64,000 nucleotides of DNA from Mytilisepta virgata (lineage: Eukaryota; Mollusca; Bivalvia; Mytilida; Mytilidae), in assembly GCA_028015205.1 (NCBI GenBank), contig CM051519.1, positions 85,953,539-86,017,538 of the forward strand. Reading direction: 5' to 3'. The notes beneath the pieces were generated by a model, which made no database searches, was not told the DNA's origin, and was given only the letters and a program-made list of their open reading frames with translations. Positions 6,309 through 17,667 of the stretch are shown here, one piece after another (positions within the stretch are counted from its first letter, which is position 1; the number at the start of each line of letters is the position of its first letter). A program made the position numbers and the translations under genes.

Positions 6309-6627
6309 CTAGCGTTTTGCATGATTCATATTAGAAATCTTTTTGATAATTAGATGATTTTCTCTCAAGTGGATGCATCCATGATTCTTTTTGCTTTTTT
6401 TCTTCACTTCGTCTATAAAGGCAGATCTTGGTGTTGTGCCTGACTGCAAAAATTCATTAAAATAACGTTTTAGTTCTTTTACTTCAGCATCTGTCCATCT
6501 TTTCCTGGTAACTTTTTTTGCAATTTGCACTTCTTCCTCTTCTTCCATATCTTCCTCCTCATCCTCCTTTTCTGCCTCTTCCGCATATAGGTTCTCCTCA
6601 ATGTCAACGGTTTCTTCTGGAATTGAG
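6309..6627 (-). CDS. Exon E of the recombinase-like gene (last exon, SANT-like tail)
   Basis: The acceptor is tttcttcattttag. The one base before the first full codon completes a Leu, then 105 codons and TAG follow. A long Glu/Asp-rich run of about 30 residues is followed by basic KKVTRKRWTDAEVKELKRYF and a C-terminal helix ending ISNMNHAKR. The Trp-Thr-x-x-Glu start and spaced helices suggest a Myb/SANT-type DNA- or chromatin-binding tail, and I recall a comparable C-terminal Trp-containing module in related fish and mollusc proteins. An ATG at 6644 lies inside the intron and should not be taken as a start. No clear polyadenylation signal was spotted in the 300 bp downstream. Confidence 0.75.
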
Positions 6628-9600
6628 CTAAAATGAAGAAACACTTTATTTAGGGACTATTTATAAACTAAGATTTCCTGAACATAACAAGTGAAAGAGG
6701 ATCTTCCATTCTAGAAATTCAATTAATTTGAGTTTCTTTCAAATTCATTGTTAGGCCAACTTGATCATTTTCTCAGACGAAAAACAGTGGCAAACAAGCA
6801 AATCTTTTAATTTTATTAACATTTTTCTCTTTTGGGTGTTGCTTAAAAAAAATCCTCTTTTCAACTGGCGATTTAATTTTTTTTTAGTTAAAATCATTTA
6901 AAGTAATTAAAATGGAGCAGAATTTCAAATAGGTAAATGAAAATCCAAAGAGCTAGAATCAAATTAGCCTTGCCTTAACATTTGATATCCATTATCGCAG
7001 GCGAGACAAAACTGTCATGTAACAGAATGCATAGCACAGACTTTGGGTTGAAGGCTGAGGAAGATAAAAGGTACTGTAACGAATTTTTAACTGTCTAGCG
7101 GCAAAAAAAAAGTATTTCTGAAAAATTTCTTTCCAGACATTGCAAGACAAACAGTAGACTGTATACATGTGTGTTTCACTATAAAACCCCTTATGTATTT
7201 ACCATGAACCAACACAATTTTCAAACTTTTGATAATGACTGAATTATTAGAAATATTATTTGAAGTTTTTCACCAAGGCCTCACAACCTGAATGAAATTA
7301 AAAGTACATATGCTAATGCAATATCATATCAAGCATTATTGACCTATGATAAGTAGTCCCCATTACAGAATTTTTGACACTAAACTTGTTCCTTCTGGAC
7401 AAAAATGTTACTAACTGTGAGAGGAATAAGTTGGATAAAAGATTTGAAAGATTTAAAATTGAAGTCATTTAGTCTGAGGATGTTTCCGTTTCATGGCTTG
7501 CCGCTTATTGATTTTGATGAGTTGTTGAATGTGTTCCTTAAAAGTCAGACTGGCTTACGTGAAGTGTCAATCAGTACGAGAGAGACGATAAGAGATAGAA
7601 CGTTCTTAGATTTATTCCATCACTGTCCATATCTGTCTTAAATCAACATTGATTTACATGGGGTGTCCGATGCCTTGTTGACATCTATAGATACAAAATG
7701 TATACCGCTTGCTTTAGAAGAATTCGTCATAACAGAGAGTAGTGAACTCACAGACGACGGAATATTAGTTCTTATCGAGAAATGTCCCAAGCTAACTAGT
7801 CTCCTTCTCTACTGACGTGTCTAAACATCACAGAGGTAGGATTCTCACATATTTCAAAACACTGTCCAAATCTGCAAAAATTGTCTTTTGAAATAAATAA
7901 TGAGGACGAAGTACGAGGCACAGGTTTGAATTATATCGGACCCTGATGTTTCACATTGCCAATAATTGTGAACTCATAAAAGACGCATCATTCTCTGAGA
8001 ATGACAATATTACAATGTATGGTGTTCTGGCCATGATTCTTGGAGACCTTGAGTTTTGATAGCTGTGATGATATAGAATTCCTTAAAGAATTGAACGACC
8101 CTGAAGATAAGGACAAGGACACCTCAGCATTGAGTGAAATAGTCAAGCAACAACATGATATCATCCAGAAATACCGTCAAAGAATCGTTGACATTCAAAC
8201 AAACAAACCAAAACAGAGATTTTCACGTCTAACCAGGCTTGATATTCATTGTGGACCGACAACTGTCAAGAGGTGCTCCAAATTAAATATGGTGAAAGGG
8301 AGATTATTCAATTTGAACAGTCCATGCAAGTCCATGGTCCATGGACATTATACTGTCTTCGACTTGGGAGTTTTTTTTAACACAGTTTAAATAACCACCT
8401 AGGCATTGTCTGGACACAATATTTTGTAAGATTTATGAGCTTAGCTCATAATCCTTGGATAGCTCATAATTCCTGTTGAGACCAACAAGAATGTGCCTGT
8501 CCCAAGTCAGGAGCCTGTAATTCAATGGTTGTCGTTTGTTGCTGTGTTACATATTTGTTTTTCGTTCATTATTTTGTACATAAATTAGGCCGTTAGTTTT
8601 CTCGTTTGAATTGTTTTACATTTGTCATTTCGGGGCCTTTTATAGCTGACTATGCGGTATGGGCTTTGCTCATTGTTGAAGGCCATACGGTGACCTATAG
8701 TTGTTAATTTCTGTGTCATTTGGTCTCTTGTGAAGAGTTGTCTCATTGGCAATCATACCACATTTTCTTTTTTATAAGAAACCACATAAGCCTCAATTCT
8801 TTTAACGGACAGACAGACGGACAGAGTGATTCCCATATACCCCCCCTGAACTTTGTATGCAGGGGTATAATAACTGCAAATCAATACGAGACAGCAAATT
8901 TTATTCTTAATTTCCTCAAAATTTGCTCCAGGGAAGTTTAGTTTGCTCTTTATATTATATATTAATATATTAATACATGTGTGGTGGGTATTTTCAAACA
9001 TTCACCAGATTCTTTTAACTGAAATTTAATTGTAAACTGTATAGATAGTGGGTCTGACCTTCTAACTCCCCAACCCCCATTCACGTTTTTTCTGGAATAG
9101 CCTTCCCTTAAAGGTATTTTAAAGAAATTAAATCTTACAGATTCTCTGTAAAAATAACGTCAGTTTCATCTTCGTCAACAGATGTATTACCATCATCATT
9201 TGGGAAGACTACATCTGCAATGAAGAAGTAACATTTAATTTGATTGTTCAAAAAGATAGTTGATTTAAATTAAATCAAACTTTACCATCTGTCAGTAGGG
9301 TACATAGTTTTTTCAAAATTCAAAATATTTTATTGGATAATGCACAGATGAATATAGCATAATCCAATCACAATACAAGATTAAATATATGTAAGACAAT
9401 TAACATAAATACATGCATCAATGATGTCTATATTAAAGAACATGACAATGGATAAATATATTTTTGTCACTTATTATTCTGCTGACATACAATTTGATTA
9501 TCAAATTTCAAAGGCTTGTCTGAGAAAAGAACAAATTTCTTTTGATGTTGAATATTTCAATGGATTTAACAAATTATTTAGTGACTGAATATCATTTTTT

Positions 9601-12600
9601 AATATTTAATTTTTCTCTAAAGGGATTTATGAGGTGGACAGCTTAAAATAAAAAGACTCTCATCCTCTACAGTATTTTTGCAATGTTTTACACATTTGTG
9701 TATCACCCGATATTTATTTCTGTTAAATATTATTCTATTCAAATTAAAAAATATAATACATTGGTTAGGATTTGCATCTTACAAAATGTAATCAGTTTCT
9801 CTTAATAAATGTTCCCATCTTTATTATTATAACAGTAACAATTTCAAACTATTAACATGAAAAAGATAACGGCCCGAATATAGCTGCCTCCCTAACAGGA
9901 CTTCAATAGAAAAAATGTCATAATTTGAATGTAAAACTGCAAAGGGTCACCATTTCAATTCCAATTTTCCAGAACGTTAATTTTTTGTTTTTATTTTTTT
10001 CTTGTGGGGGGGATTAAAAATCAGGAAAGGAGAAGGGGCGATAAAGGCTCTTATTGGCCTAAAATACAAGTGAAAATTAATCATCAAGTGTTAAAAGTGT
10101 TAATTGCGAATTTGGAATCTTAAATCCATAACAACGAAGAAAATATAAGGACTTCTGAAAATTCTTGCATAAAAAGAACAAAATAATTGCTTGAAGTTTA
10201 CAAAAATTCAGATATTTAGTTCATTTTGTACTTTTTGGTCACTTTCCGGTCATATTTCTGGTAAGGAAATGGTGTCCAAACCCAAGAAACAACTTCATAT
10301 TTAGAGATTACATTCATTATTACATAGTTTATCATATGTGAAAATATAAAGATGTTTCTTGGGTGTGGACATAGATTTCTAGATGTAAATATGTGAGAAA
10401 AAACAACAAAATTTACTATTTTCAGCAGTTTTTGCTAAATGACATATAATTGTGACACTGTTGTGACGTCATTACAATGAACTAAAGCCATAAAACATTG
10501 ATTTTCCTAATATTTACATATTTTACTATGTTTCGAACATTTTTTTATGTTATAACAACAAAGTTGATATTTTTGGGCCATATTCATAGCCTAATGCCCC
10601 TACACCTTTTCCCAATTAGGAACTCCTTAAGATCAGAAAATTTTTTGACAGGTGTTGACACAAGAAACAGTCTTGCCTGTTAAACAACTAACCCACGAAA
10701 GATGTGGACGCAATAATGGTTTAATGACAAAGACAATACATCATAACAAGAATCAATACACATGTACCCATTTGTCAAGGTGTAATAATAATGAAGATAT
10801 GTTAAAAGTAACTCACTAATGAAATTTAGGTCGACTGGTGAAGTGTTTAAATGTCCAGTATGCACTAAGATTGACCAACAGACCAAATATCATTGTCACT
10901 CACTAATGAAATTTAGGTCAAAGACAGGTGAAAAGTGTTTAAATGTCAAGTATGTACTAAGATTTACCATCAGACCAAATATCATTGTTAGAGATATAAT
11001 ATAAATGAAGAAATGCTAAAAGTCATCCAACCTTGAAAATGAGGTCAAGGTCAGGTGACAAGTGACAGACAGACAAGTATCTACCAAAAAACTTTTTAAC
11101 CAAATAATGCGGATATAGATATAATAGATATTGATAAAAGCACTTAAATTTGAAACATTTTGAAAGTCATTCAACCATGAAATTGAGGTTAAGGTCAGAT
11201 GACAAGTATTGGACTGCCAATACTTATATTCAGACCAAAGATAGGGAGTCTAGCTAATCACTTGCAGAAAAGGGAACTTGAATGCAAAAATATGACTTCA
11301 GTTATTGAAGCATAAAATGGAGGTCAAGTCGCAAAGTTTACATAACTAGAGGCTCATAGGAGCCTGAATCGCTCACCTGGAAACCTAGACTTATTTCTGT
11401 TATGCAATTAAGGGTGCAACCAGAAATAGACTGTGTCCTTCTGATCATTTCTGCAACTCATATTTTTTTTACATATTTCTATAGGTTAGAAATAATGACC
11501 TTAAAATTGGCAGATAGATATATTTTGTCCTTCTGGTAATTTTGGAAAAAAAAGTCGTTTCAGAGGCAATAACTCCTAAATCGGTTAACAGACTTTTCTA
11601 AAATTTTGCAGGTACATAGATTTTGCACATCTGATCATTTTTGCTAATCAAACTTTTCATCTATCTTTTTGGAGATAATTGCCAAAAACCTCAAAAAATG
11701 TGTTTTCAGGGGCAATAATTCCTAAAGGGGTCGACTGCTTTTTTAAAAATTTTACAGGTAGATAGAATTTGACCTTCTGATCACTTTTGCTAATCAAACT
11801 TCTCATCTATTTTCTAGTTTCGGTGATAACAGCCAAAAACCTTAAAAAAATTCATTTCAGGGTCAATAACTCTTAACTTGGTTGTCCGATTTTTCTGAAA
11901 TTTGGCATACAGAGATAATGTCCTTCTTGTCATTTTTGCAACTCATACCATTCATCAATCTTCTATAGTTTTCCAAACAATAGCAAAAAACTGCAAAATT
12001 CTGTCAAATTTACATTTCAGGGGCAATAACTCCAAAACGGGGAATCCAATTAATCTGAAAATTTCAGGGTAGATAGATCTTGACCTTCTGATCAGTTTAA
12101 CCCTGCCAGATTTGCTCTATCTGCTTTAGTTTTTGAGTTATAACCTAAAAAATGCAGTTTTACCCTATTTTCTATTTTTAGCCCTGGTGGCCATGTTTGT
12201 CGACGAATCAGGATCTAGGATATAATTTATAAACTAGATGCCCCAAGGAACATTCACACTGAATTTTATTCAATTCTGTTCAGTGGTTTCAGAGGAGAAA
12301 GTTTTTAAAAATGTTAACGACGAACGACGACGGACGCCAAGTGATGACAATAGCTCACATGGCCCTGTGGGCCAGGTGAGCTAAAAAGTCATTGCACAAT
12401 GAAAATGAGGTCAAAGTCACATGACATATTATCTGCCTAAAGTTTTGATCATGAGGTACATGAAACCAAAAAATCTAGTCGCTAGGTACTAGTTTCAAAG
12501 TTATTAACAATTTGAAAAAGTTTACGCGGCCTGAAAGAAAACCTATGTCTCGCTTTTCGCGACTTTTCCACGCAGAGGAGACAAAAATCAGGAGTTGCTT

Positions 12601-15600
12601 GACAGACTGCTTACACAATATTATATGATCACAAAATTTTTGCTGTTGTGTAAAAATTGAAGGCTGATTCAAGGAAACAAAAAATAGAAGGCCTGACGTC
12701 AAAAGTTGAAGATGACGACCCATTCCATAATGTGAAAACATTTTTCTTTTGTCAAACAAAAATCATACCTTTTATGTCCATGTCCTCTAACTTTTTTCCT
12801 TTAAATTTGGAAGTCAAGTTCAAATCTTGAATGAGAAGAAGTTTACTAATTTGAGTCCTCTCCAATAACCCACTCATTTGTCTGTAATGTTCTTTGTGAA
12901 CAGAACGGGTATGCCCTAGGTGATTGCATACCCAATCCAGCTGGTATTTATCAAGGTTAAGCATCTGTAAAATCATACACATTATCTAACATTATGTACT
13001 TATACAACCCCTCTGAAAAATCAAGTATGCACAACTTTAAAGAAACTTTCTGATTCAATTTATTAACAGATTAATTCAGGGAAGATTAAAGTATTTGTGA
13101 TGACAACTTTTAATAAAATGCTCCGCAGGGCTCAGCTTGATACGACCGCAGAGGTCGAACCCTGAACAGTTGGGGCAAGTATGGACACAACATTCAAGCT
13201 TGATACAGCTCTGAATTTGGATTGTGATTAAATATTTGACACAGCATAGGTTTCTGATACAGAATGAATGTGGTCAAAGAACTTAAAATTTTGAAATTGG
13301 ACATTACCTATTATGGTCCAATATCCAAAATCTAAATACATGGTTAGATTCACCAGAATTCAATTTTTGATGAAATCAAACAAAGTTTAATTTTGGACCC
13401 TTTGGATCTCAACGTGGACCAATTTGATAACGGGGCCCCAAATCCAAAATCTAAATACACAGTTAGATTCAGCATATCAAAATACCCAATACATTCAATT
13501 TTTGTTAAAATCAAACAAAGTTTAATTTTGGACCCCGATTTGGACCAACTCAAAAACTGGGCCCAAAATCAAAAATCTAAATACATGTTTAGATTCAGGA
13601 TATCAAAGAACCCCAAGAATTCAATTTTTGTTAAAATCAAACTAAGTTAAATTTTGGACCCTATGGACCTCAATGTGGACCAATTTGAAAACAGGGCCCA
13701 AAAACAAAAATAGATATACATGGTTAGATTCGGCATATCAAAAAACCCCAAGAATTCAATTTTTTGTTGAAATCAACAAAGTTTAATTTTGGACCCCGAT
13801 TTGGACCAACTTGAAAACCAGGCCCAATATCAAAAATCTAAAAACACAGTTAGATTTAGCATATCGAAGAACCCCGAGAAATGAGTTTTTGTTGAAATCA
13901 AACAAAGTTTAATTTTGGACCCTTTGGACCTTAATATGGACTAATTTGAAGACGGGGCCCAAAATTAAAAATCCAAATACACGGTTAGATTCAGCATATC
14001 ATAGAACCACAAATATTCAGTTTTTGATGAAATCAAACAAAGTTTAATTTTGGACCCTTTGGACCTCAATGTGGACCAATTTAAAACGGGGCCCAATATC
14101 CAAATCTAAATACACGGTAAGAACCCCAACAATTCAAGTCTTTAAATTAATCCCCATTGAAATTGGTTAAGAGATTTGTATTTATTTTCAATTTAAGATT
14201 TCTTGCTGTTGCGCAATACCGTGCTGTTGCGCAATACTGAGTAAATCAGTTTTCAGACTATATATACTAATTTACACACCCTTTTCATTTAATCAAACTG
14301 TTTGGTGCTATATCAGTATTTGTTGATCAGAAATAATTTATGTTCAAAGGAGCATAGCAAGAGAACATATAAGCAATTTATACAAAGTATTAGAAAAGTC
14401 TTGTTTTTGGCCCCTTTTTGGCCTCTAATTCCTAAACAGTTAGGGCCATAACCCCCAAAATCGATCCCAACCTTCCTTTTTTGGTATGGAACCTTGTGGT
14501 ACAATTTCATAGAGATCCATAGACTTATACTCAAGTTATTGTCCGGAAACCAGAAAATCCTTGTTTTTTGGCCCCTAATTCCTAAACGGTTTGGGCCATA
14601 ACCCCAAAAATCAATCACAACCTTCCTTTTGAGGTATGGAACCTTGTGGTACAATTTCATAGAGATCCATACACTGATACACAAGTTATTGTCCTGAAAC
14701 AAGAAAAATGCTTGCTTTTGGACCCTTTTTGGCCCCTAATTCCTAAACAGTTGGGACCATAACCCCCAAAATCAATCCCAACCTTCCTTTTGTGGTATTA
14801 AACCTTGTGTTTAAATTTCATACATTTCTATTAACTTATACTAAAGTTATAGTGTGAAAACCAAATGTCTTCGGATGCCGCTGACGCCGCCGACGCCAAC
14901 GTCATACCAATATACGACTGCAAAAATTTTTGCGGTCGTATAAAAACAGTGCTTTTAAAGTAAAATTCATCATAGAATCATATCTATAAGTCTGAAAACA
15001 GCCCACTATTTGTGTATGATAAATAAGTATAGCAATAATCATTAACAGTTTGGAAAATAACCAATCTACAAGTTAATAAAGACTCTCTTATACATTGTAG
15101 CTTAAAATTGATTTTTAAGGCACATAACCTTAAATTAAAAAAGAAATACCAGTAAACACTTAAATGATCAATATTATTGTTCAATAGTATAAAAGTGTGT
15201 AATACTACTAAATAATAATTTTAAAATAATTGATTATTTCTGATTAATTGATTAACAATTTCATAATAGATTAGTAGCATCGGAAGCCCATTTCGATTAC
15301 ATAAACCGATTAATTGATAAATCACTTCTCCTACAATTTTGACATATCAACCTTTCATTATGCTTTAGTAGATGCTACTATAAATTTTTTTCAAAAAGTC
15401 AAGTATTATTATCAATTTGTTAACTCCCAAATGGTAAAAGATAGCCCCTCCGTGCAAAATGGTAGGGGCTAAAACCTCAACAGTGAATATAAATCCTTAT
15501 CTAGTACAAAGTTTCAAAACATCAAAAGAATTAGATCACCGAAACAAAAGTTATTGTGCGGAAACCTACATATCTACAGACAGCTAAGCCAACGTCATAC

Positions 15601-17313
15601 TGTAACACAAACAATTTTTTGTGGTCGTTTAAACAACTATAAACCGTACATTTTCCCTCTTCCTATCAAATATGAAACTGTAACAGATGCTTAAAATCTG
15701 TCTCAGCATTTAGTTAATAAAAGATGTCACAATTTTACTGATCCTATATTATTTTACCTGTGTAAGGGTGGCCATGTATTTTCTCATGGAAACGGAAGTG
15801 ATTCTATGAGGTGATACCAGCTGCAGTTCATTACAGATTTTCTTTACTGAATCATATGCCCTTGCATAATAGTTCACTGAAAAAGAGGAATTCATATACG
15901 TACATCAGCTACTCAATGATATATAGGAAGTAACAATTAAGAAATAAGTGCCACTGTAATGCTAACGCACAAGAGAAGCACTGGCATGCAAATACCACAT
16001 TTTAATAGTGCTTTTATATACAGGACCAGTTAAAGTTCATATGTTACAAAGTTGAAGTGCTATTCCCATGACACCAGCTCCCTCCCCTGTTTCTATATAC
16101 TGTCATAATCGACTACACCAATGTCATCAGGCACCAATATTCATTCAATTACTTACAGTAAATCAACGTTTGTTTTTTGTACATATAAAAAATTTCAAAG
16201 TTTTTGGCAAAAATTGTATTTAAATTGATAGATGTACTTATGGCCCTTGACAAGATGTACAATGTAAAGAAATCACCGTTGTCTAAATACAAAAGAAATC
16301 ATAGAGACAGGTCAAATAGAATAAAAGATATATCCATTGTCTATCTCTGTGATTTATCACTGTATGTCTCTTGCTTTACTATATGTAAACAACTAGCATA
16401 AGTACAAAGGTTGTTTGAATTCAGCTTTGTGGTTACAGAGGAAAAGCCTTTAAGAACAGGTTTCCTATATTAAAACTTAAGTTTTGCAGTGGCAGCTATC
16501 TTGGACTTTGGAATAACACTGATTAGATTTGCAGAGGACCATCCAATAAACATTCATGTACATTTCGATTCAATCAGCTTTGTAGTTTCTGAGAAGGCCT
16601 TTGAACACTGCCAATAAGGTTTTATGATGTTAAGGAGGAAGGAGAAACATATTTTTAAATGTGACCCAAGGATAAATATTAATCTAAGATCTATGCTGGC
16701 AGCCATTTTGAATTTCCAATTGGCATAAAAAACATAACTTTGCAAAGGACACATTTAGAAAGTGACCATCCTAGTAAACTTTCAATTTTTTTGTTAGTTT
16801 CGCACAAAATTTGTTAATTTGCATATAGAAAAAATTGGCAATGACTATTCTGGTAAGCTTGGTTTCAAATGGTTAAGAGGTTTCACAGACATGGCCTTTT
16901 TAAAACATTTCCACATAGTGTCATATTTTCATTTTTTTTTTTAAATTATCGATTTTATATGGCAGACATCTTGGATTTCTGATCTGAGCAAAACCAAACT
17001 TTGTAGAAGACAATCCAATGAACATTACAACCACCTTTTGTTTCGATTGGCCCAGTAGTTTCAGAGAAGGTTGAAATGTAAGTCTACAGATGAAAACAAA
17101 CGCACAAGTGTTGACAATAATTCGCATGACCCTTTGGGTCAAGTGAGCTAAAAATTTAGCAACCATTGTATATAATGTATGCATACCAGAATTTGGAAAC
17201 AGGTACGGATTTCCCTGGACTATTTTTGCTTGTTTTCTTTGCTCATTATTAGCAAGAAAAGAGAGAGCTCTTCTACAATCTGGTGGAATAATTACTGGAA
17301 CCGGTCTTCCTCT
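6309..17313 (-). CDS. Tyrosine-recombinase-like protein with acidic linker and SANT-like tail, five exons, 5' incomplete
   Basis: Joining minus-strand exons 17313-17187, 15876-15758, 12964-12769, 9214-9139 and 6627-6309 gives 837 bp with no internal stop: 278 residues plus TAG. Every intron is GT-AG and the phases fit (1, 0, 1, 2). Residues 1-42 read like the strand and helix after the beta-lysine of tyrosine recombinases (RGRPVPVIIP, then NPYLFPNS). Residues 68-82 resemble the second-arginine box (R74, K75). H97-L-G-H100 and Y109 match the LGH and nucleophile-Tyr motifs; the nine-residue His-to-Tyr spacing equals XerD as I remember it. V71 sits where a His is usual. Residues about 150-206 are acidic, and 212-278 (W217) look Myb/SANT-like. 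Similar uncharacterised proteins are, from memory, numerous in fish and molluscs. Arg I and the beta-lysine would lie in missing upstream exons. A Crypton- or DIRS-derived host gene is possible; activity is unknown. Confidence 0.7.
6628..7383. other. Intron sequence, no further feature seen
   Basis: This is the 3' part of the intron between exons D and E. It is AT-rich with homopolymer runs. I see no additional exon, repeat family or RNA gene. Confidence 0.5.
7384..8280 (+). pseudogene. Decayed leucine-rich-repeat (F-box/LRR-like) gene fragment
   Basis: The plus-strand frames show a run of LRR-like motifs broken by stops and frameshifts. The first frame (from about 7384) has LREVSISTRETIRDRTFLDL then FHHCPYLS and a TAA at about 7639. 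It continues past the stop with LALEEFVITESSELTDDGIL and IEKCPKLTSLLLY. After a frameshift near 7813 come LTCLNITEVGFSHISKHCPN and LQKLSFE. Another shift near 8040 gives METLSFDSCDDIEFL, an Asp/Glu-rich insert, and RLTRLDIHCG. The alternating 'CPxL..L.L' and 'L.DDG' spacing is typical of the cysteine-containing LRRs in FBXL/AMN1-type proteins. It lies antisense inside an intron of the recombinase-like gene. Several disruptions argue against function, though undetected introns could explain some breaks. Confidence 0.65.
8480..8776 (+). repeat. High-copy mussel interspersed repeat, 3' end
   Basis: The block runs from about tgtgcctgtcccaagtcagg through tttatagctgactatgcggt and ggccatacggtgacctatag to ggcaatcataccacattttc. 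I recognise this order of phrases from memory as an extremely common sequence in Mytilus genomes and transcripts, usually at the 3' end of a retroelement-like unit. It directly follows the LRR pseudogene in the same orientation. No protein is encoded in the block itself. Confidence 0.7.
8790..8871 (+). repeat. Repeat tail with C-rich/G-rich inverted pair
   Basis: The segment contains ggacagacagacggacagag, then tataccccccctg...gcaggggtataa, an imperfect inverted pair separated by aactttgtat. It resembles the tail at 3700-3770 and, from memory, common bivalve repeat ends. Confidence 0.6.
9139..9214 (-). CDS. Exon D of the recombinase-like gene (acidic linker)
   Basis: The acceptor is cttcttcattgcag and the donor is gaatct|gtaaga. 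The exon is 76 bp: two bases completing an Asp codon, 24 codons, and two bases of a Leu codon completed by the next exon. It encodes a linker rich in Asp, Glu and Thr (for example NTSVDEDETDVIF). It is too short and compositionally biased to identify alone, but both splice sites are good and both phases match the neighbouring exons. Confidence 0.7.
9308..9709 (-). pseudogene. Dead LINE (non-LTR retrotransposon) 3' end
   Basis: Read on the minus strand from 9709, the frame gives RVIHKCVKHCKNTVEDESLF then ILSCPPHKSL and a stop. It resumes after a shift as LNNLLNPLKYSTSKEICSFL and RQAFEI before TGA at 9503-9501. The C-x3-C...VEDE...F.L.CP pattern is the hallmark of the extreme C-terminus of LINE ORF2 proteins, downstream of the reverse transcriptase. 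About 190 bp of A/T-rich 3' UTR follow, ending with a caataaaat polyadenylation-like signal near 9325. The copy is 5'-truncated and frameshifted, so it is inactive. It lies in the intron between exons C and D, in the same orientation as the host gene. Confidence 0.7.
9710..10805. other. Intron sequence, nothing identifiable
   Basis: This is AT-rich DNA within the intron between exons C and D. The short ORFs here (for example 10498-10683) are Phe/Ile/Leu-rich by base composition alone. No exon with good splice sites was found. Confidence 0.5.
10806..11345 (+). repeat. Degenerate AGGTCA-containing minisatellite (left part)
   Basis: About four imperfect units of roughly 88-180 bp start near 10810, 10898, 11024 and 11168. 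Each has a phrase like actcactaatgaaatttagg or cattcaaccatgaaattgag followed by ggtcaaggtcaggtgacaag, and the first two also share gaccaaatatcattgt. The array is cut by the element at 11346-12385 and resumes on the other side. Confidence 0.75.
11346..12385 (+). mobile_element. Bivalve interspersed element with hairpin ends, inserted in a minisatellite
   Basis: The left end is gaggctcataggagcctg then tcgctcacctgg. The right end is a hairpin at 12353-12381, gctcacatggccc-tgt-gggccaggtgagc, with 12 of 13 arm bases pairing. The gctcacctgg near the left end is the reverse complement of the right-end ccaggtgagc, giving partial inverted ends. Inside are about four related segments with recurring phrases such as ggggcaataactcc and tagatttgaccttctgatca-like text. 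No ORF of note is present, so it is non-autonomous. Short ctag/cta matches at the borders do not establish a target duplication. I recall the same end motifs as very common in mussel genomes. Confidence 0.75.
12386..12475 (+). repeat. Degenerate AGGTCA-containing minisatellite (right part)
   Basis: The text aaaagtcattgcacaatgaa, then aatgaggtcaaagtcacatg, matches the unit starts at 11024 and 11168. It looks like the continuation of the interrupted array on the far side of the inserted element. Confidence 0.7.
12769..12964 (-). CDS. Exon C of the recombinase-like gene (LGH and Tyr motifs)
   Basis: The acceptor is atgattttacag and the donor is aaaag|gtatga. The exon is 196 bp, giving 65 codons plus one base, starting in phase 0. 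It encodes LDWVCNHLGHTRSVHKEHYR, which carries the His of the LGH motif and a Tyr nine residues later, the expected spacing for the tyrosine-recombinase nucleophile. A helix with ERTQISKLLLIQD follows, as in uncharacterised fish and mollusc relatives, then a basic stretch. This is the most diagnostic exon. Confidence 0.8.
13380..14110 (+). repeat. Tandem repeat of about 131 bp alternating between two unit types
   Basis: The phrase tttaattttggaccc starts near 13386, 13521, 13648, 13782, 13908 and 14043. Spacings alternate between about 135 and 127 bp, so every second unit is about 261 bp apart. Units at 13386, 13648, 13908 and 14043 carry ctttggacctcaatgtggac, with small changes. Those at 13521 and 13782 carry cgatttggaccaac. 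The result is an A-B-A-B-A-A order. Both strands contain short ORFs by chance of period, which I do not annotate. Confidence 0.85.
14395..14880 (+). repeat. Three tandem units of about 150-160 bp, 'ggcccctaattcctaaacag' type
   Basis: Units begin near 14399, 14561 and 14711. Shared phrases are ggcccctaattcctaaac, gggccataacccccaaaatc, cccaaccttccttttg and ggaaccttgtggtacaattt. The third unit is more diverged at its end and runs into the CG-rich tail (gccgctgacgccgccgacgc) and the terminal palindrome. The 129-codon minus-strand ORF through this region follows from the repeat and is not a gene. Confidence 0.8.
14943..15757. other. Intron sequence with one degraded repeat copy
   Basis: This is AT-rich intron DNA. 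At about 15425-15640 there is a worn relative of the 14395-14942 unit: caaaatggtaggggctaaaa, later gccaacgtcatac, and a degenerate end caattttttgtggtcgttta. The rest has no identifiable feature. Confidence 0.55.
15758..15876 (-). CDS. Exon B of the recombinase-like gene (second-Arg box)
   Basis: The acceptor is ttcctctttttcag and the donor is acacag|gtaaaa. The exon is 119 bp, made of two bases that complete a Val codon plus 39 codons, and it ends in phase 0. It encodes a helix (ARAYDSVKKICNELQL) followed by SPHRITSVSMRKYMATLTQ. The MRKYMATL segment aligns by eye with the LRHTFATHL box of phage-type integrases. The Arg is kept and the following position is Lys. The His three residues before the Arg is replaced by Val. 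Confidence 0.75.
15877..16485. other. Intron sequence, nothing identifiable
   Basis: This is intron DNA between exons A and B. The 65-codon ORF at 16204-16401 lacks a family signature and splice context. Confidence 0.45.
16488..17152 (+). repeat. Degenerate interspersed repeat ending in the 'gtgagcta' motif
   Basis: Three imperfect units of about 205-265 bp begin near 16490, 16695 and 16960 with ggcagctatcttggactttg, ggcagccattttgaatttcc and ggcagacatcttggatttct. Each is followed by an 'aactttgcaaaggaccat...aacattca' type phrase. The right end (17113-17152) reads gacaataattcgcatgaccc then gggtcaagtgagctaaaaa. It is a diverged version of the right end of the 11346-12385 element, so both belong to one superfamily. 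Confidence 0.7.
17187..17313 (-). CDS. Exon A of the recombinase-like gene (first visible exon)
   Basis: The acceptor is ttaatcttttgcag and the donor is tctg|gtatgc. The exon is 127 bp, giving 42 codons plus one base, and starts in phase 0. It encodes RGRPVPVIIP, a helix rich in Arg/Ala/Leu, then NPYLFPNS. This resembles the beta-hairpin and following helix of the tyrosine-recombinase catalytic core. By spacing to the later Arg, the catalytic beta-lysine should sit one or two residues before this exon, in an exon not seen in this window. Confidence 0.75.
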
Positions 17314-17567: not shown

Positions 17568-17667
17568 NNNNNNNNNNNNNNNNNNNNNNNNNNNNNNNNN
17601 NNNNNNNNNNNNNNNNNNNNNNNNNNNNNNNNNNNNNNNNNNNNNNNNNNNNNNNNNNNNNNNNNNN
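17568..17667. other. Assembly gap of exactly 100 N
   Basis: There are 100 consecutive N. Fixed-length runs of 100 are the usual placeholder for a gap of unknown size. It separates the gene-bearing part from the 1.5 kb satellite, so the real left border of the satellite is not visible and the adjacency is not proven. Confidence 0.95.

Follow-up and report, generated by a model that had tools for sequence, protein, structure and literature searches.

A minus-strand, intron-split gene in the bivalve Mytilisepta virgata probably belongs to an animal tyrosine recombinase family without the HxxR histidine

A 64,000-nucleotide stretch of the Mytilisepta virgata genome (assembly GCA_028015205.1, contig CM051519.1, positions 85,953,539 to 86,017,538 of the forward strand; hereafter the window) carries, on its minus strand, five exons, which we take to be the final five of a gene resident in the bivalve genome. 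We assign the gene to an animal tyrosine recombinase family that lacks the histidine of the HxxR motif (HxxR His), and we put the probability of this reading at roughly 0.55. An earlier note, made from the DNA sequence alone, had described a tyrosine-recombinase-like core fused to an acidic linker and a SANT-like tail, and its interpretation is partly supported by the analysis reported here.

The exons contribute 127, 119, 196, 76 and 319 nucleotides, together 837 coding nucleotides, and join to give 278 residues and a stop with no internal stop codon. All five lie as previously placed, with AG acceptors and GT donors; the exons, splice sites, coding length and residue positions proposed in the earlier note were recovered unchanged. 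The features of the gene, in window positions, are as follows.

17187..17313, minus strand: exon 1 (numbering is within the window), an internal exon reading RGRPVPV... to ...LFPNS, located by tblastn; it lies directly after the Lys-beta position, at an acceptor common to the gene-model breaks of Pecten P0005 and Lottia P0012
15758..15876, minus strand: exon 2, carrying V71 (HxxR position) and R74 (Arg II), located by tblastn
12769..12964, minus strand: exon 3, carrying H100 (His III, in HLGH) and the putative nucleophile Y109, located by tblastn
9139..9214, minus strand: exon 4, acidic linker, placed by frame, splice signals and alignment with P0001 and P0002
6309..6627, minus strand: exon 5, with the remaining acidic linker, the C-terminal helical domain and the stop, located by tblastn
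6312..6527, minus strand: the C-terminal 72 residues modelled alone, a helical domain that is weakly homeodomain/Myb-like
17568..17667, no strand: 100-N assembly gap that truncates the gene on its upstream side

Four of the positions expected of a tyrosine recombinase fall within these exons: R74 of MRKYMATL (15784-15782), H100 of HLGH (12913-12911), Y109 (12886-12884), which lies nine residues past the LGH histidine, and V71 (15793-15791), the valine that the note had already recognized at the HxxR His position. Arg I and Lys-beta are expected in the missing upstream part. The 278 residues align over their full length with the scallop protein P0001 (Ylistrum; 54% identity, E = 7.8e-94), and tblastn with P0001 located exons 1, 2, 3 and 5 once each, with E values from 2.4e-11 to 1.2e-33; given these E values and the full-length match, the exon join is not due to chance. 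The same four exons were also found singly and in order with P0004, while the acidic exon 4 gave no separate tblastn match from 14 relatives. Alignment of the spliced P0001 to the window was gapless across all four junctions.

Further support for the junctions came from the gene models predicted for relatives in scallop, clam and limpet, whose breaks coincide with three intron positions of the window gene. The Pecten P0005 model jumps from VRGK, the residues preceding exon 1, to MLNLDKYQ, with which exon 3 opens, and the Mizuhopecten P0002 model begins with MLNLDK at that same point. The Lottia P0012 model is joined right ahead of RCKPVPV, corresponding to the exon 1 start, Mya P0018 diverges from P0008 past FANK at the exon 1 end, and the P0003 model reads through introns at both ends of exons 1 and 2. 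Since these gene-model slips fall at the positions before exon 1, between exons 1 and 2 and between exons 2 and 3, these three intron positions are common to the window gene and the named molluscs. The exon 3-4 and 4-5 junctions were placed by frame, splice signals and the P0001 alignment. Exon 1 begins at an acceptor and is thus an internal exon of a gene that continues upstream. No upstream exon was detected past 17400 in the window by tblastn with 14 relatives at E up to 10; exon 1 lies 254 bases from the 100-N gap, beyond which a tandem array starts. The N-terminal half is truncated by the assembly rather than demonstrated to be lost.

The family proved to be large. Three proteins matched the 278-residue query, one of them (Ylistrum) over its full length, and a search tuned for greater protein length returned 17, ranging from 512 to 1224 residues, with hosts including scallops, Dreissena, Mya, Mytilus, Lottia, Littorina, Priapulus and a moth; Pecten maximus alone has at least three members. 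When part of the moth protein was used as the query, 372 proteins were matched at E up to 0.001, and among the 120 listed (query included) those with a species name come from insects, except for the fish Dissostichus. The large fish and mollusc family anticipated by the note is therefore borne out, with insects and a priapulid added. Our comparison set comprised 139 relatives, with molluscs, a priapulid, insects and a fish among the named hosts, and a subset of 38 of them (A3) excluded partial sequences, aberrant models, the fish row and the majority of the insect rows.

In these proteins two zinc-type motifs, C-x2-C...H-x3-H (kept in 26/27 to 28/29 readable A3 members) and C-x2-C...H-x3-C (29/30 to 31/32), are followed by a helical region, the catalytic region, the acidic linker and the tail, consistent with the linker and separate C-terminal domain described previously. 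A tryptophan and a proline of the tail are conserved among 20 aligned members. Modelled alone, the 72-residue tail formed a small helical domain with a predicted local distance difference test (pLDDT) score of 93.3. Its fold was weakly closest to homeodomains and next to a Myb domain, and no Pfam family matched above cut-off; the model suggests a separate small helical domain, weakly homeodomain- or Myb-like, and the SANT assignment of the note found no clear support in these results. At the other end of the protein, a PWWP-like N-terminus followed by a TLxxFxxDxxWA motif was seen by eye in Priapulus P0011 and Lottia P0013, the motif recurring by eye in Dreissena, Mya and Pecten P0005. P0013, which one source names PWWP, matched PWWP weakly (E 0.0035, under the Pfam cut-off). 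The models of Pecten P0005 and Dissostichus P0058 each contain two consecutive recombinase units, which suggests that copies may stand in tandem and have been merged by gene prediction.

Active-site residues were counted over the 139 proteins, with unalignable positions set aside. Arg I is conserved in 133/134, Lys-beta in 136/137, Arg II in 137/137, His III in 137/138 and the tyrosine in 138/138, counts that are biased toward conserved members as the relatives were collected by similarity to the catalytic region. H100 and Y109 of the window are accordingly conserved positions, and the Arg I and Lys-beta sought by the note are present in full-length relatives. Three proteins account for the differing letters: P0048 at Arg I, P0003 by reading through an intron next to Lys-beta, and P0018 by a gene model that skips an exon. 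At the HxxR His position, 137 readable proteins have Thr (119), Val (14), Ser (3) or Arg (1) and none has His, so its absence is a family trait and not decay of the window copy. Profile alignment with four phage recombinases placed Val/Thr at the HxxR His and lined up Arg I, Lys-beta and LGH; this alignment is non-significant (hhalign probability 4%, E 0.01).

A structure model of the full-length scallop protein P0004 (60% identical) gave recombinases and type IB topoisomerases as its best PDB matches, which supports a tyrosine-recombinase fold for the catalytic region, as the note had proposed, through this relative and not the window protein itself. A viral structure library returned four matches with probability of at least 0.97 (best E 0.0087), of which two are nameless, one is an Integrase and one a DNA_BRE_C protein. 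The Pfam recombinase match to which the note had looked did not appear: no recombinase family was returned for the 278 residues (E up to 10), for 20 relatives or for the 38 A3 members (E up to 0.01). NCBIfam gave no recombinase match for seven proteins, PHROGs gave only weak function-unknown families and no recombinase for six, and in PDB sequence searches the 278 residues found no recombinase and the A3 profile had no hits. Two kinds of hit were set aside as chance matches, namely NanR of NCBIfam for P0058 (25.5 bits, cut-off 260) and two calbindin PDB entries (E about 0.06) on the linker side. Among prokaryotic and viral proteins, 55 and 33 pattern matches were obtained, respectively, and none was confirmed as a relative.

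Loss of the HxxR His had led the note to doubt catalysis. Variation at this position is reported (PMC4381057, PMC8138268): Cre H289A retains recombination and Flp H305A retains cleavage without completing recombination (PMC4381057), and in some bacterial subgroups the position is occupied by Tyr or weakly conserved (PMC8138268). Type IB topoisomerases, which share the superfamily fold and have a His at the last pentad position as our family does, likewise lack the HxxR His (PMC2747268); they differ in having Lys at that position, where the window has Val and its relatives Thr, Val, Ser or Arg. From the Cre and Flp mutants, the topoisomerases and the bacterial subgroups, the HxxR His is the least needed residue of the catalytic set, and since Cre H289A still recombines, loss of catalysis does not follow from its absence in 137 of 137 relatives. 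With the other catalytic positions kept across a wide range of animals, selection for cleavage and rejoining would be the best explanation.

The active site of such enzymes forms a 3′-phosphotyrosyl intermediate. In the mechanism that we propose, the protein would bind DNA through its zinc motifs, helical region and tail, the tyrosine would attack the scissile phosphate to give a 3′-phosphotyrosine, and Arg I, Lys-beta, Arg II and His III would carry out the chemistry without the HxxR His. The family may have originated from recombinase-bearing transposons such as Cryptons, with insects retaining recently copied members and the mollusc lineage probably kept by vertical descent as an intron-split gene, whose host role may be DNA rearrangement, relaxation or binding.

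Comparison with known systems places the family near several of them. It resembles XerH, XerD and Cre in predicted fold and in how Arg I, Lys-beta, Arg II, His III and Tyr are ordered and spaced, but has Val or Thr for the HxxR His and adds zinc motifs, the acidic linker and the helical tail. Relative to the Crypton R-H-R-Y tetrad, whose H we take to be the HxxR His, it keeps R, R and Y and lacks that His. CryptonA and CryptonI are likewise eukaryotic tyrosine recombinases, with mollusc (Lottia), insect and fish hosts and several copies in some species; Kojima and Jurka (2011, PMC3212892) list Lottia gigantea. The same source describes animal Cryptons as having no C-terminal domain, whereas our family has the helical tail. 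This comparison was made by description, and Crypton descent is offered as a lead. The DUF3504 genes (KCTD1, KIAA1958, QRICH1, ZMYM2-4, WOC) also contain introns and a recombinase-derived domain to which zinc or other domains have been joined, but their catalytic Tyr and second Arg have been lost (PMC3212892); both residues are kept in every readable relative here. DUF3504 matched none of the 38 A3 members at E up to 0.01 in a Pfam copy whose inclusion of the model was unchecked, and the QRICH1/ZMYM-type kinship suggested by the note thus found no support. Nimavirus-type recombinases and their decapod relatives, compared by description, share a C2H2 zinc motif and multi-exon genes; five of seven key residues are reported for them, and they are described as distinct from Cryptons and DIRS (PMC10871703). 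The literature that we searched gave no description of this family, and Repbase may file members as Cryptons, for example CryptonV.

To judge whether the family is mobile or resident, we compared conspecific proteins in 19 species with at least two listed members and built a tree of 36 rows and 174 columns. Pairs 97% identical occur on different contigs in the insects Diatraea, Rhamnusium and Eumeta, where unmerged haplotypes are possible; the Parnassius pair is 79% identical and the remaining insect pairs 44-67%. The insect pattern fits a family that is mobile or frequently duplicated. Short or metagenomic contigs carry several insect-type proteins about 700 residues long, so that intronless copies probably exist. 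In the tree, one branch (100/100) splits molluscs, Priapulus and three further rows from insects and the fish, whose row is long and unsure in placement. The window groups with P0004 and P0001 (97/88), and Mytilus P0016 groups with Argopecten P0017 (99/97) in a mussel-scallop lineage. The group of the window would be a second such lineage provided that the window is not of scallop origin, as its 70% identity to Mizuhopecten suggests.

These data bear on several explanations that compete with a resident, catalytically competent gene. That the window copy is a still or lately mobile, intron-bearing, Crypton-like transposon is a tenable though unlikely alternative: it is favoured by the multi-copy insect branch with its near-identical pairs, by the several Pecten maximus members and the two-unit models, and by retention of the catalytic set. 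Against it, the window copy has five exons over 11 kb with repeat-filled introns, mollusc conspecific pairs (Pecten, Mizuhopecten, Lottia) are 42-72% identical, and old paired lineages are seen in the tree; no element ends turned up, though no search was aimed at them and the upstream half lies outside the window. The old lineages, the introns over 11 kb and the shared intron positions together favour a resident gene. A host gene that is no longer catalytic, serving in DNA binding or as a scaffold, as thought for the DUF3504 genes, would fit the Val in the window and the complete lack of His in its relatives, the zinc motifs and helical tail, which suit binding, and the weak PWWP match of the Lottia relative. 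We consider it improbable, since the five other catalytic positions are near-invariant in contrast to the DUF3504 genes, and Cre tolerates loss of the same His.

It is very improbable indeed that the exon join is an artefact of a pseudogene fragment or remnant next to an assembly gap. The 3′ half stands alone, ends close to the gap and a near-identical tandem array, and belongs to a gene model predicted from DNA; yet 278 codons are open, the splice signals are intact, the catalytic residues are conserved and identity to a scallop protein (Mizuhopecten) reaches 70% over 157 core columns. On these sequence comparisons, the window most likely holds a resident, intron-split gene of a Crypton-like recombinase lineage that would have kept its strand-cleavage chemistry. 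A bolder version, in which an animal-wide R-K-R-H-Y recombinase family, distinct from the described Cryptons and the catalytically dead DUF3504 genes, would include a vertically kept mollusc host gene still cutting DNA for rearrangement or swivelling, is offered only tentatively, and we think it rather unlikely.

Other features of the window are mostly repetitive. From 17668 to 64000, immediately past the gap, runs a tandem array with a 1499-base unit (1496-1501; 31% GC), of which 30 whole units are at least 99.8% identical to the first; the unit carries an AAT run and TGACCTTGACCTT. No Rfam families or tRNAs were found in the window, including within this array. A second array (95-2982) has an 87-base (or 175-base) unit in about 33 (or 17) copies, with long open frames. 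Within the exon 4-5 intron, leucine-rich broken frames on the plus strand (7423-8390) look by eye like a decayed leucine-rich-repeat gene; in Pfam, 8037-8387 gave only DUF3294 under cut-off and 7423-7639 gave nothing. The introns also contain short tandem repeats, their units roughly 90 to 150 bases long, at 10811-10988, 11547-11907, 13355-14122 and 14413-14822.

KCTD1, KIAA1958, QRICH1 and ZMYM2-4 have all lost the Tyr and second Arg according to PMC3212892, whereas the family described here keeps five of the six catalytic positions nearly always, and in molluscs this near-complete set sits in intron-split genes. Even if all copies were mobile, a large family with no entry in the domain libraries searched would deserve a name. 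If a member does cut DNA, it would mean that an animal gene can retain recombinase chemistry, and it would show how an enzyme of this type manages without the HxxR His.
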